Assembly (NCBI GenBank): GCA_016929195.1
Contig: JAFGJG010000123.1
Span: 1-44,273 of the forward strand
Length of the DNA: 44,273 nucleotides
From: Thermoleophilaceae bacterium
GTDB lineage: Bacteria; Actinomycetota; Thermoleophilia; Solirubrobacterales; Thermoleophilaceae
Direction of reading: 5' to 3'
In this document: one piece after another, positions 3,718 through 7,892 of the stretch
How the letters are laid out: each line of letters opens with the position of its first letter
Position numbering within the stretch: the stretch's first letter is position 1
Translations under genes and position numbers: made by a program
Notes under the pieces: generated by a model
Seen by the model: only the letters and a program-made list of their open reading frames with translations
What the model was told of the DNA's origin: nothing
Database searches by the model: none

Positions 3718-3891
3718 CTACTCGTCGGATCCTGCGGCGTCGGGGTTGCCGGTCGCCGTGCCCTCCTCGCCGGGCGTCCCCGGGCTGTCGGTGGCCGCGT
3801 CGCGGGCGCCGTCGCCCGTGTCGTCCGGCACGGCCTCCGAAGGCTGCTCCTCGGGGAGCTGGTCGGATTCCTTCCCGGGCTTCTCGCTCAC
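3718..3891 (-). CDS. small acidic hypothetical protein (57 aa)
   Basis: A 57-residue frame from a GTG at 3891, preceded on the minus strand by a strong GGAGGA ribosome-binding site. It overlaps the stop of the upstream small gene (GTGA). Composition is Glu/Asp/Pro/Gly-rich with no hydrophobic core (SEKPGKESDQLPEEQPSEA near the start), so it is probably disordered. The stop-start overlap and the Shine-Dalgarno sequence are the best arguments that it is real. It is followed 18 bp later by the zincin gene. No function recognised. Confidence 0.55.
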   Translation of the reverse strand: MSEKPGKESDQLPEEQPSEAVPDDTGDGARDAATDSPGTPGEEGTATGNPDAAGSDE

Positions 3892-4061
3892 GATTCCTCC
3901 TCCTCACCGGGATCCGGCTGAGCGCCCGGTACCTGGGCGTCGTCCTCCTTGTGCTCCCAGTCCTCGCGGGTCTTCTCGATGTGCTCCTCGACCCGGTCCG
4001 AGCGCTTCTCGAGGTCCTCGAGCTCCCGCTCGAGGTCATCGGCCCTCTCTTCGTGCTCCAT
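3888..4061 (-). CDS. small coiled-coil acidic hypothetical protein (57 aa)
   Basis: A 57-residue frame from the ATG at 4061. Its first 40 residues are heptad-like charged helix (EERADDLERELEDLEKRSDR), suggesting a short coiled coil. The tail is acidic and ends in EEEES. The frame stays open further upstream without a better start. It is the first gene of the probable three-gene unit ending with the membrane zincin. I do not recognise it beyond the resemblance to small actinobacterial coiled-coil proteins. Confidence 0.55.
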   Translation of the reverse strand: MEHEERADDLERELEDLEKRSDRVEEHIEKTREDWEHKEDDAQVPGAQPDPGEEEES

Positions 4062-4118
4062 GCCAGCCCCGTACCCACCGCGGCGCCGCCCGCAAACCGG
4101 GGGGCGTAGTCTGCGCGC

Positions 4119-4499
4119 ATGGCCCACGCTTTCCGCACCGCAGTCGAGAGCCGCGACCTGGACGCCGCGGCCGACCTCCTCGCCCCGGACGTGCAGCTGC
4201 ACAGCCCCGTGGCCTTCCGGCCGTTCGACGGTCGCGAGTCCGTCATGGGCGTGCTGACCGCGATCACGTCGGTCTTCGAGGACTTCGAATACATCGACGA
4301 GCTCGAGTCGGACGACGGCACCACCGCGCTCATCTTCCGCGCGCGCGTCGGCGACAAGTCCGTTCAGGGCATCGACTATCTCCGCCACGGCGACGACGGG
4401 CTGATCACGGAGTTCACGGTGATGCTGCGCCCCCTGTCGGCGATCATGGCAGTCGGAGAGCGGATGGCGCCGCAGGTCGAGGGCCTCGCGAAGGCCTAG
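4119..4499 (+). CDS. NTF2/SnoaL-like fold protein
   Basis: A 126-residue cytoplasmic protein with the cone-shaped NTF2-like pattern. An N-terminal helix with SRDLDAAADLLAPDVQLHSP is followed by a mid segment RPFDGRESVMGVL and beta strands ending with FTVMLRPLSAI. Such proteins are small isomerases, hydrolases or binding proteins; specificity cannot be read from the sequence. It ends two bases before the PHO-box-like repeats of the following phosphatase operon and is probably transcribed separately from it. ATG start at 4119. Confidence 0.8.
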   Translation: MAHAFRTAVESRDLDAAADLLAPDVQLHSPVAFRPFDGRESVMGVLTAITSVFEDFEYIDELESDDGTTALIFRARVGDKSVQGIDYLRHGDDGLITEFTVMLRPLSAIMAVGERMAPQVEGLAKA

Positions 4500-4500
4500 C

Positions 4501-4544
4501 GCTTCACATCCGTTCACACCAGGTTTTCCGCTCGTTCACGTGAG
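4501..4544 (+). promoter_or_regulatory. PHO-box-like direct repeats upstream of phosphatase operon
   Basis: Four 11-nt units start at 4501, 4512, 4523 and 4534: GCTTCACATCC, GTTCACACCAG, GTTTTCCGCTC and GTTCACGTGAG. The second and fourth match the GTTCAC core of the actinobacterial PhoP box closely; the first and third are degenerate. The block ends 29 bp before the start of a PhoX-like phosphatase. The repeats are visible directly; PhoP binding is inferred from the Streptomyces consensus and the gene downstream. A 7-bp inverted repeat (TCCGCTC/GAGCGGA, 4527-4550) overlaps it. Confidence 0.55.
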
Positions 4545-4573
4545 AGCGGAGCTTCGCGGGCACCCTGGCCGCG

Positions 4574-5761
4574 ATGCAGCGGACCCGCCGGGAGGTGATC
4601 GGGGTTGCCGCGGGCGGCGTGGCCGCAGTGGCCCTGGGGACCGCCTTCTGGGACGACCTGTTCGGCTCGGCCTCGTCCGCGCAGCTGCGGCCGGGCCCGG
4701 GCTACGGCCCGCGCCGGGCGCCTGACGAGCTCGGGCTGCGCCTGCCGGAGGGCTTCTCCTCGCGGCTCGTCGCCCATGGCGGCGAGCGCGTGCCCGGCAC
4801 TGGCTACCGCTGGCACGAGGCCTCCGACGGAGCGGCCACCTTCCCGCTCGGCGACCGCGGCTGGATCCTCGTCTCGAACTCGGAGACGCTCTCCGGCGGC
4901 GCGTCGGCGATCCGCTTCGACCGTCGTGGCGAGGTCGAGGACGCGTACCGGATCCTCGACGGCACCAGCCAGAACTGCTCGGGCGGAGGCACGCCGTGGG
5001 GCACCTGGCTCTCGTGCGAGGAGGTCGAGGACGGGCTCGTCTGGGAGTGCGACCCCACCGGCAGGCGGAAGCCGGTCAGCCACCCGGCGATGGGCGTCTT
5101 CAAGCACGAGGCCGCGGCGGTGGACCCGCGCGGCCGGCGCGTCTACCTCACCGAGGACCTGATCGACGGGCGCTTCTACCGCTACACGCCCGAGCGCTGG
5201 CCCGACCTGAGCGCGGGGCTGCTGGAGGTCGCCACCGTTCGGCAGGGAGGGGCGGTCGACTGGGCGAAGGTGCCCGACCCGGCGGCGAGGAGAGAGCCGA
5301 TCCGGCGCCAGCTCCCCGGCACCACGGCCCTGAAGCGCGGCGAGGGCATCTGGCGCGACGGCGGCACCGTCTACGTGGCGACCACGGCCGACGACCGCGT
5401 CCACGCCTACGACATCCGGCGCGAGCGCATGCGGGTGATCTACGACGGCCTTGCCTCACGCTCGGCGCCGCTGCTGCGAGTCGACCAGCTGACGGCCAGC
5501 CGCGCGGGGGAGGTGTTCGTCTGCGAGGACATCTCCACGCGGGAGATCGACATCGGCCTGATCGAGCGCTCCGGCCGCGTCTCAGTGTTCCTGTCCGCGA
5601 CGGGACCGCTCCATGAGAACTCGGAGCTCACCGGCGTGACGTTCGACCCGTCCGGCAGCCGGATGTACTTCTCCTCGCAGCGCGCCGGGGGGAAGGACGG
5701 GCTCGCGGGCCCGGGCGCGATCTACGAGGTCACGGGGCCCTTCAAGGGGAGGCGCGCGTGA
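4574..5761 (+). CDS. phoX: PhoX-like (DUF839) alkaline phosphatase, Tat-exported
   Basis: A 395-residue protein. Its N-terminus MQRTRREVIGVAAGGVAAVA is a twin-arginine signal, fitting PhoX enzymes, which fold around metal in the cytoplasm and are then exported. The mature part is a DUF839 beta-propeller-like sequence with SNSETLSGG, SGGGTPWGTWLSCEE, GVFKHEAAAVDP, YLTEDLIDGRFYRY and FVCEDIS. These are the conserved acidic and Cys/Glu blocks of PhoX-type enzymes. Expected role: release of phosphate from organic monoesters outside the cell. It forms an operon with the 5'-nucleotidase (GTGA overlap) and lies under a PHO-box-like element. DUF839 covers proteins of untested activity, so phosphatase function is likely but not certain. 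Confidence 0.82.
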   Translation: MQRTRREVIGVAAGGVAAVALGTAFWDDLFGSASSAQLRPGPGYGPRRAPDELGLRLPEGFSSRLVAHGGERVPGTGYRWHEASDGAATFPLGDRGWILVSNSETLSGGASAIRFDRRGEVEDAYRILDGTSQNCSGGGTPWGTWLSCEEVEDGLVWECDPTGRRKPVSHPAMGVFKHEAAAVDPRGRRVYLTEDLIDGRFYRYTPERWPDLSAGLLEVATVRQGGAVDWAKVPDPAARREPIRRQLPGTTALKRGEGIWRDGGTVYVATTADDRVHAYDIRRERMRVIYDGLASRSAPLLRVDQLTASRAGEVFVCEDISTREIDIGLIERSGRVSVFLSATGPLHENSELTGVTFDPSGSRMYFSSQRAGGKDGLAGPGAIYEVTGPFKGRRA

Positions 5762-7281
5762 GGCCGCGCCTCCGCGACCGCCGCCACCTCGCGCCGGGCG
5801 TGGCGGCCTTCGCGGCCGCGACGCTCGTCGCGCTGCTCGGCCTCTACGCCCGAGCCGACAGCCCGGAGCAGGCGACTGGGCTGGTGAAGCTGCGCCTGCT
5901 CGGCATCAACGACCTGCACGGGCACGTCGAGCCGCCGGCCGAGGGCCTCGGCGGTGCCGCCTGGCTGGCGGCCGGCCTCGACCGCGCGACGATCCCCGGC
6001 CGCACCATCAAGGTCCACGCCGGGGACCTCGTGGGCGCCTCACCGCTCGCCTCGGCCTACTTCCACGACGAGCCGTCGATCGAGGTGGCGAACGAGATCG
6101 GCTTCGACGTGGCCACGCTCGGTAACCACGAGTTCGACGAGGGCGTGGGCGAGCTGCGCCGGCTGCTCGACGGCAGCCCCGGCTTCGCGGGCGCACGCTT
6201 CCCGTACACGTCCGCGAACGTGACCGACGCCGACGGGAACCTGCTGCTCCGGCCGTACGAGATCGTCGAGCGCGCCGGTGTGCGGATCGGCTTCATCGGC
6301 GTGACCACTCCCACGGCGACGCGCTACCTGCTGCCCCGCTACTCGGGCGGCCTCCGCTTCGGCGACATGTCCGATGCGGTCAACCGCCAGGTGCCGGAGC
6401 TCCGGCGCCGCGGCGTCGAGGCCATCGTCGTGCTCGCCCACTCGGGTGCGCCCACGCAGGTCGGGGACGGCGCGCGGGCGAGCGGGCAGGTCGTGGACGA
6501 GGTGCGGCAGATGAGCGACGCCGTGGACGTGGTCGTGGCCGGCCACAGCCACACCGAGCTGAACCTGCGCATCCCGAACCAGAGCGGCGGCGGCCACAAG
6601 CTGGTCGTCGAGTCGCTGTCCTACGGGACCGCCTTCGACCAGGTCGACATGACCCTGGACCGGGCGACCGGCGACGTGATCGCGAAGCGCGCGGTCATCC
6701 CGCGCACGCTCCACTCCGGGCTGGCGCCCGACGCCCGGGTGGAGCGGCTGCTCTCCGGCTACCGCGAGCGCCTCCGGCCCCTGGCCGACCGTGTGGTGGG
6801 GCAGGCGGCCGGCCCGCTGTCGGCCGCCACCGGCCTGGGCGGGATCGCCGCCGAGGCGCAGCGCGCGTTCGCGAAGGCGGACGTGGCGCTCGTGGACGCG
6901 GGCAGCTTCCGGGCGCGGATCGACGCGGGCCCGATCACGTACGCCGAGCTGTTCGCGACCCAGGCCTACGACCACCCGCTCGTGCGGATGGAGCTCAGCG
7001 GCAGGGAGTTGCGCGGCGTGCTCGATGACGGCCTCTACACGGCCGGGGCGCGCGACCTCGATCCGGACCGGGCCTACTCGGTCGTGGCGAACGTGCTGCT
7101 CACGGACGCGGGTCCCTATCCCGTGCTGCGCCGGGCCGCTCGCCGCGGGCGTGAGCTGGGGTCGCAGGTCGAGGCGCTCGCGGCCTACGTGGAGACGCTC
7201 GCGGGGCCGATCCGGCCGACGCGCGCCGAGCCGGTGCAGCCCGTGAGCACGCCGTCCTACGTCTGCCTGATCCCCGCCTAG
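5758..7281 (+). CDS. exported 5'-nucleotidase / metallophosphoesterase
   Basis: A 507-residue UshA-type two-domain enzyme from a GTG at 5758. A signal peptide or membrane anchor is at residues 8-33. The metallophosphoesterase domain shows GINDLHGH (D52, H54), HAGDLVGAS (D90), LGNHEFDEG (N123, H124), VLAHSG and AGHSH (about residue 260). The C-terminal 5'-nucleotidase domain runs from about residue 340, with NDGSFR-like VDAGSFRARI, QAYDHPLVRMELSG and YSVVANVLL. It probably removes phosphate from extracellular nucleotides. It is translationally coupled to the PhoX gene, making a two-gene phosphate-scavenging operon. Confidence 0.9.
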   Translation: MRPRLRDRRHLAPGVAAFAAATLVALLGLYARADSPEQATGLVKLRLLGINDLHGHVEPPAEGLGGAAWLAAGLDRATIPGRTIKVHAGDLVGASPLASAYFHDEPSIEVANEIGFDVATLGNHEFDEGVGELRRLLDGSPGFAGARFPYTSANVTDADGNLLLRPYEIVERAGVRIGFIGVTTPTATRYLLPRYSGGLRFGDMSDAVNRQVPELRRRGVEAIVVLAHSGAPTQVGDGARASGQVVDEVRQMSDAVDVVVAGHSHTELNLRIPNQSGGGHKLVVESLSYGTAFDQVDMTLDRATGDVIAKRAVIPRTLHSGLAPDARVERLLSGYRERLRPLADRVVGQAAGPLSAATGLGGIAAEAQRAFAKADVALVDAGSFRARIDAGPITYAELFATQAYDHPLVRMELSGRELRGVLDDGLYTAGARDLDPDRAYSVVANVLLTDAGPYPVLRRAARRGRELGSQVEALAAYVETLAGPIRPTRAEPVQPVSTPSYVCLIPA

Positions 7282-7325
7282 GCGTACCGGCGCACCCTTA
7301 CCGAATCGCCCCCATAGTGGTGTTC

Positions 7326-7368
7326 GGCCGTCGGCGCATCGCTTTCGACGAGGCGAACGTCGACGGCC
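7326..7368. terminator. candidate bidirectional terminator hairpin
   Basis: Perfect 8-bp arms GGCCGTCG (7326-7333) and CGACGGCC (7361-7368) flank 27 nt. They lie between the convergent ends of the nucleotidase (7281) and the P-loop kinase (7380). The loop is long and there is no U-tract, so this is only a candidate. Confidence 0.35.
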
Positions 7369-7379
7369 CAGAGACTTCC

Positions 7380-7892
7380 TCAGCGCTGCAGCCGCTCGGG
7401 GCACGCGGCGCGAATTCTCTCCGCCACCGCTGCTGTCGAGAGCTCGACCGTGTCGACGACCAGGCCGACGCCGTCGAGCTGGTCCTGGGCCCGGTCGAGA
7501 GGCTCCACCTCGTCGAGCAGGTGCTCGAGGCTGTGCCAGCCCGGCGGCTCACGGGCGACGATCCGTGCGCGCATCGTGTCCATGGACGCCGTCAGCCGGA
7601 CGAGCAGGTGGTCGCCGGCGCCGATCGCCGCCAGCACCGCCTCGAGGTGCTCGGGCGACTCGATCACCTCGGCCACCAGGAGCAGCTCGCACCCCGTCGC
7701 GCGGTGTGACTCCGCCCAGGTGCGCAGGTGCTCGCAGCGGCCGTCCAGGCCGGGAAAGGGGTACGCCCAGGCGAGCTCGTCCACGTCCCCGGCCGCGTGT
7801 GCGACCGCGTCGGCGACGAGCGCGTCGCTGAGCGCCATGAGCGTCGTCGTCTTGCCCGCGCCCGGCGCGCCCGTGACGATCACGGCGAACAC
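7380..7892 (-). CDS. P-loop NTPase / nucleoside-kinase-like protein
   Basis: A 170-residue protein from a GTG at 7892. The Walker A motif GAPGAGKTT is at residues 8-16. A DxD-like acidic segment (GDVDELAWAYPFPGLD) and a Walker-B-like strand ELLLVAEV follow. RARIVAREP and DRAQDQL later resemble the lid and late helices of small kinases. It is most like AAA-17/18 family small-molecule kinases, substrate unknown. It stands alone, with a convergent neighbour upstream and 21 bp to the next minus-strand stop. Confidence 0.72.
   Translation of the reverse strand: MFAVIVTGAPGAGKTTTLMALSDALVADAVAHAAGDVDELAWAYPFPGLDGRCEHLRTWAESHRATGCELLLVAEVIESPEHLEAVLAAIGAGDHLLVRLTASMDTMRARIVAREPPGWHSLEHLLDEVEPLDRAQDQLDGVGLVVDTVELSTAAVAERIRAACPERLQR

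Follow-up and report, generated by a model that had tools for sequence, protein, structure and literature searches.

We analyzed a putative promoter in 44,273 nucleotides (nt) of DNA from a Thermoleophilaceae bacterium (assembly GCA_016929195.1, contig JAFGJG010000123.1; this whole stretch is called the window below). A SnoaL-like gene (4119-4499) and a PhoX-family gene with its ATG codon at 4574 are separated, from stop to start codon, by a 74-nt gap. It holds an array of short direct repeats, which we predict to be a PHO box, a site of phosphate-starvation control. The PhoX-family gene is followed by a gene for a 5'-nucleotidase. The features of the locus are listed below; unit scores were obtained with a matrix of 58 units, the first two of each array found at the pstS genes of 29 relatives, the genome under study being excluded.

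4502-4511, plus strand: outer repeat unit CTTCACATCC, one base off register, 10 nt to the next core; 12.2 bits, the top single-unit score in 4480-4580
4512-4522, plus strand: repeat unit GTTCACACCAG; 9.9 bits
4523-4533, plus strand: degenerate repeat unit GTTTTCCGCTC; 0.4 bits
4534-4544, plus strand: repeat unit GTTCACGTGAG; 5.8 bits
4561-4566, plus strand: proposed -10 hexamer CACCCT, placed by spacing, 20 nt past the final TTCACN core, the ATG following after 7 nt
4574-5761, plus strand: PhoX-family protein of the short branch, 395 amino acids (aa); PF05787, E=7.5e-35
5758-7281, plus strand: 5'-nucleotidase/UshA-like phosphoesterase; PF00149 (Metallophos) and PF02872 (5_nucleotid_C); overlaps the PhoX gene by 4 nt

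Structure of the repeat array

The TTCAC cores of the array begin at 4503, 4513 and 4535, with 22 nt from the second to the third. An earlier note on this DNA had framed the array as four 11-mers starting at 4501 (GCTTCACATCC), 4512, 4523 and 4534 (the last three as listed above). The transcription is correct, and the letters bear out the GTTCAC core ascribed to two of the four units. The spacing of exactly 11 nt, also claimed there, holds for the imposed frame but not for the cores: the first is off by one, lying 10 nt from the next, and the third unit reads GTTTTC. Hence the array is described here as three in-phase units (4512-4544) and one out-of-phase unit. The units at 4512, 4523 and 4534, the middle one degenerate, are 11-nt direct repeats with a conserved 7-nt core, as is characteristic of PHO boxes.

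Similarity to the arrays of pstS genes

A PstS-family match was found in 56 of 61 genomes, and all 30 pstS loci that were read (29 relatives and the genome under study) carry an array of four 11-nt units with the outline TTCACA-N5-TTCACA-N5-NNNACA-N5-GTAACAGRCT. These arrays agree with 18-23 of the 23 consensus positions, the maximum in 900 shuffles being 16; the consensus was derived from the same 30 loci, and the independent test is the matrix scoring of the window. There the three-unit sum for 4512-4544 is 16.1 bits, the highest value on either strand, while the next value is -4.0, at a place overlapping the array, and the best place elsewhere scores -6.6 with the three-unit matrix. None of 30 shuffled windows reached 16.1 bits (shuffle maximum 12.2). 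A single place in the window has three TTCAC words on one strand within at most 40 nt, and none of 200 shuffles has one; in both of these tests the shuffles preserve base-to-base steps on average.

Arrays elsewhere in the genome and in relatives

In the 3.46-megabase genome, the pattern TTCAC-N6-TTCAC-N6-TTCAC with at most two mismatches has four matches at three sites, and the reversed-pattern control has none. The three sites are this window, the classical PhoX gene on contig C24, and a place on C17, so that two of them precede PhoX genes. At three mismatches or fewer there are 11 matches, compared with two in the control, and these now include pstS. The same repeats had been expected before pstS of this genome, and they are indeed present there (C14:61391-61434), as well as at the classical PhoX gene (C24:15075-15102) and at a regulator gene linked to pst (C14:60977-61020).

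The C17 array (in the stretch L046:9843-10775) has the top three-unit score among the scanned stretches of this genome, 21.8. It is followed by a 60-aa open reading frame (ORF) without a Pfam family and then by a fatty-acid hydroxylase gene (PF04116), which perhaps points to lipid remodelling in phosphate starvation.

Across the 61 genomes the three-unit pattern gave 237 matches versus 20 for the control, about a twelvefold excess; the count was above the control in 54 genomes and below it in one. The targets were surveyed at 30 loci, the single best match in each of 30 genomes, with six of the downstream proteins checked by Pfam and the others assigned from translations and pstS positions. 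Eighteen of the 30 matches precede a phosphate gene, three more lie in the pst neighbourhood, and nine have no evident link. The eighteen comprise seven pstS-like genes; seven genes of a receiver-less regulator, one truncated by a contig end; one miscalled frame running into pstS (L166); two PhoU_div genes; and one phosphoesterase gene. The matches in L146, L147 and L150 sit between pstS genes or within about 6 kilobases (kb) of them. Those in L140, L154, L162 and L164 precede genes of a HAD-family hydrolase, a PF04185 phosphoesterase and two PhoU_div (DUF47) proteins, and these genes are candidate members of a wider regulon.

Genes of the operon

The locus had been described as a PhoX/5'-nucleotidase operon. 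Pfam confirmed both families, but the PhoX protein belongs to a short branch and is not classical. It matches PF05787 with 121.5 bits (cut-off 24), the best stretch covering positions 152-372 of the 515 profile positions. Its nearest solved chain is the PhoX structure 3zwu (E=1.9e-7, 34 bits), aligned in short stretches only; that chain has 592 residues versus 395 in the window protein. The residues NC-GG-TPWGT-L-CEE and F-HE, which we take to be the PhoX metal site, are common to 3zwu and the window protein and are conserved in a 15-row alignment that includes the classical PhoX protein of C24. The PhoX family has three genes in this genome: that of the window, a second short one on C190, and the classical form on C24 (241.9 bits). 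The N-terminus of the 395-aa protein is twin-arginine-like (RTRREVIG), and export was predicted by eye. The product of 5758-7281 has UshA-type NCBIfam matches, all of them under the cut-off, and matches to nucleotidases in the PDB.

The closest named relative of the PhoX protein, with 72% identity, is from a Thermoleophilaceae assembly. Other relatives come from Solirubrobacterales, Patulibacter, Conexibacter, Solirubrobacter and Actinophytocola records and from a small number of assemblies with labels of other phyla; Patulibacter, like Thermoleophilaceae, is part of the class Thermoleophilia. A strong three-unit array is present in five of 14 PhoX upstream regions (the window, G002, G030, G004 and G034), a level reached in none of 500 shuffles. 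Weaker arrays precede PhoX in G041, G012 and G047, where 3, 12 and 5 of 500 shuffles do as well, and six of the 14 regions lack the array altogether. The PhoX gene of G004 has pstS at a distance of about 6 kb. The shuffles of PhoX upstream regions (500 here and 300 for the more distant relatives considered below) preserve base composition only.

Promoter geometry

At each of the five arrays measured in this genome, 20 nt separate the core (TTCACN or ATCACN) from a candidate -10 hexamer, the hexamers having been picked by eye before the gap was measured. They are CACCCT in the window, TAGCTT at the C24 PhoX gene, GACACT on C17, CAGACT at pstS and CGGACT at the pst-linked regulator, four of the five conforming to NANNNT. 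The identical gap suggests one promoter class. The hexamer lies 7, 8 and 6 nt from the start codon in the window, at the C24 PhoX gene and on C17, and 60 and 30 nt from it at pstS and at the pst-linked regulator, which suggests that the messages of the first three are leaderless. A terminator scan of 3800-7500 found nothing.

This geometry also bears on the sign of regulation. A PHO box that represses, holding the operon down, is highly improbable, since the array is placed relative to the presumed -10 hexamer as it is at pstS, and scavenging genes fit activation, though part of this argument is itself conjectural. We propose instead that OmpR/PhoB-type DNA-binding domains align head to tail on the 11-base-pair repeats of 4502-4544, an array that would span the -35 position and whose last core lies 20 nt upstream of the weak -10 candidate. 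Under phosphate starvation the bound regulator would recruit RNA polymerase, and a leaderless or almost leaderless message would start at about 4574. Its products, a PhoX-type phosphatase and a 5'-nucleotidase, would then release phosphate outside the cell.

Support for the predicted PHO box

The array matches the repeats before the pstS genes of its own genome and of relatives, and therefore 4502-4544 is very likely to be a phosphate-starvation control site of the ordinary, known type. The phosphate-starvation control proposed in the earlier note is thus supported by comparison with the arrays of pstS and PhoX genes; regulators of the PhoB/RegX3 kind are present, none of them above the PhoB equivalog cut-off.

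Several observations weigh against this prediction. One of the three in-phase units has a near-random score (0.4 bits), and the fourth unit is off register. In the window, GTTCAC-N5-GTTCAC with at most three mismatches has 19 matches versus 20.6 expected, which is the chance level, and the top two-unit matrix score, 10.3, was also attained by eight of 30 shuffled windows. Of the 11 genome matches with at most three mismatches, seven fall outside the three best sites. They comprise pstS and six places without a recognisable phosphate gene nearby, as judged by the ORF list and, for five of the six (C3 being the exception), by Pfam. Nine of the 14 PhoX upstream regions, including that of the second short PhoX gene on C190, have no strong array. 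None was seen in 13 further named relatives, mostly more distant, whose top score was 0.9; these remained from 19 named loci, six of which duplicate contigs already scored, and the region scored was the 450 nt preceding the match (393 nt in L074), partly coding wherever the match begins inside the protein. The least unlikely arrays among the 13 are those of L076 (0.9; 2 of 300 shuffles) and L071 (-7.5; 4 of 300 shuffles). In G002 the gene after PhoX encodes an MlaE permease and not the 5'-nucleotidase, which according to the ORF lists is also not encoded next to PhoX downstream in G030 and G004. A sigma-70 scan of 3800-7500 gave no site, so the -10 assignment depends on spacing. Finally, none of 38 TIGR02154 (PhoB) matches in the genome is above the equivalog cut-off, so the analysis identified no strict phoP.

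Some of these results could be explained by a functionless chance cluster of TTCAC words in an intergenic gap: the two-unit scans do not exceed chance, the array includes a degenerate and an off-register unit, and a strong array is missing from 22 of the 27 PhoX upstream regions scored. A pattern taken from the array itself (GTTCAC, GTT and GTTCAC in phase, at most three mismatches) has one match in the window, with zero mismatches, versus 0.32 expected; a match to this pattern was also present in 26 of 100 shuffles. As a genome scan, the two-unit pattern gave 110 matches versus 39 in the control at two mismatches or fewer, and was rejected as too noisy alone. The three-unit score, the rarity of the array in the genome, its occurrence at the nearest orthologues and the common spacing nevertheless make a chance origin very unlikely.

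The predicted PHO box, if correct, extends the actinobacterial PHO box, including its 11-nt repeat logic, to the class Thermoleophilia, for which no PHO-box study was found in the titles and abstract openings searched. The pstS-array matrix may be used to predict phosphate regulons of these bacteria, the window offering a concrete test promoter. The arrays also direct attention to an unusual receiver-less PhoB-like regulator beside pstS.

Candidate regulators

OmpR-type DNA-binding domains occur at 13 places in the genome. A phoP gene, on which the proposed control had been made to depend, was not identified at the PhoB equivalog cut-off; candidate readers of the array are a RegX3-like regulator, with a kinase, on C118 and two PhoB-like proteins beside pstS. 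The best solved relative of the C118 regulator is RegX3 (231.7 bits), followed by MtrA (195.7), and its gene precedes one for a HAMP/HisKA kinase. Beside pstS, a full-length PhoB-like regulator with a weak receiver match is encoded on the minus strand (C14:60060-60944), and a receiver-less winged-helix protein of 111 aa on the plus strand, directly before pstS (C14:61051-61386; L045:6052-6387) and with an array of its own (C14:60977-61020).

Among the 30 pstS loci, sequence motifs within at most 1.5 kb upstream revealed the full-length regulator in 23 and the receiver-less one in 13, and 12 of these 13 score at least 10 (two-unit matrix) upstream. The relatives with the receiver-less gene are L102, L108-L111, L113, L114, L117, L119, L120, L122 and L127. 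Several of these genes lie inside longer open frames, so that their start positions are guessed. When 79 genomes of the class were sampled, the matches with open frames shorter than 180 aa all fell in the order of the bacterium studied here, although a long frame may still hold a short gene. Excerpts of published work describe constitutive DNA binding by PhoB freed of its receiver and by the isolated PhoP DNA-binding domain (PMC4415409, PMC6283541), so evolution may have built the same construct here. Our tentative suggestion, which we hold to be somewhat less than an even chance, is that the phosphate regulon, this operon included, is partly driven by this short protein (about 111 aa), which would either amplify the two-component switch constitutively, by positive feedback, or compete with it. 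The literature searched (titles and abstract openings) yielded no receiver-less regulator next to pstS.

In five genomes of family f4 (L100, L104, L107, L116 and L118), the full-length pst-linked regulator has NP, with Asn at the expected phosphoacceptor Asp, the position being assigned by eye; its receiver is thus atypical. MtrA mutated at its phosphorylation site, Asn included, loses binding to its sites according to an excerpt of the report (PMC9045223), which counts against a working role for Asn-type receivers.

The main reader of the array might be a different regulator of the OmpR family whose site is a similar 11-nt repeat (MtrA-like or GlnR-like), the operon then answering signals other than phosphate. 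GTAACC-N5-GTAACC, the published consensus for MtrA of Streptomyces, likewise is a direct repeat of 11 nt; phoA and phoP are reported targets of MtrA, which is also said to compete for the sites of GlnR (PMC12323332, excerpts). In most pstS arrays here the last unit is GTAACA-like, and a regulator encoded on C36 is almost equally near MtrA (203.0 bits) and RegX3 (212.5 bits) among solved structures. The C36 locus was itself considered as MtrAB-LpqB and rejected, its third gene encoding a trypsin/PDZ protein. Yet the window units are of the TTCAC and not the GTAAC type: on visual inspection, TTCAC stands at 4513 and 4535 and TTTTC between them, with no GTAACC-N5-GTAACC. Arrays of this type, moreover, recur before pstS, PhoX, PhoU_div and pst-linked regulator genes, so that such a reader is unlikely.

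Comparison with known systems

The closest parallel to the predicted PHO box is in Streptomyces. According to excerpts of the relevant papers, the direct repeat units of S. coelicolor PhoP have 11 nt, with the core GTTCACC, seven positions being conserved and the other four less so, and its PHO boxes occur at phosphate genes, combine weak units with strong ones and overlap the -35 position (PMC4415409, PMC7866108, PMC6283541). The window, compared by eye with the consensus GTTCACC, shares with them the 11-nt repeats, the GTTCAC core and the tolerance of a degenerate unit. Unlike in Streptomyces, the core here is mostly TTCACA, and the pstS arrays finish in a GTAACA-like unit overlapping the presumed -10 hexamer.

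The arrangement of phoU also differs. The gene is split across two contig ends (C14:65239-65388 and C88:28162-28662), and past it C88 carries genes for Ppx/GppA, a histidine-phosphatase-family protein and polyphosphate kinase. It follows pstB and adjoins the ppx and ppk genes here, and does not lie beside a phoR-phoP pair as in Streptomyces.

In mycobacteria the phosphate response regulator is RegX3, as stated in an excerpt of PMC4415409. RegX3 is the best solved relative of the C118 regulator, which has the kinase gene next to it, a likeness that comes from structure-database matching. In the stretch read, the C118 regulator is not linked to pst or phoU, and its promoter has no array among the best 15 array matches per unit number.
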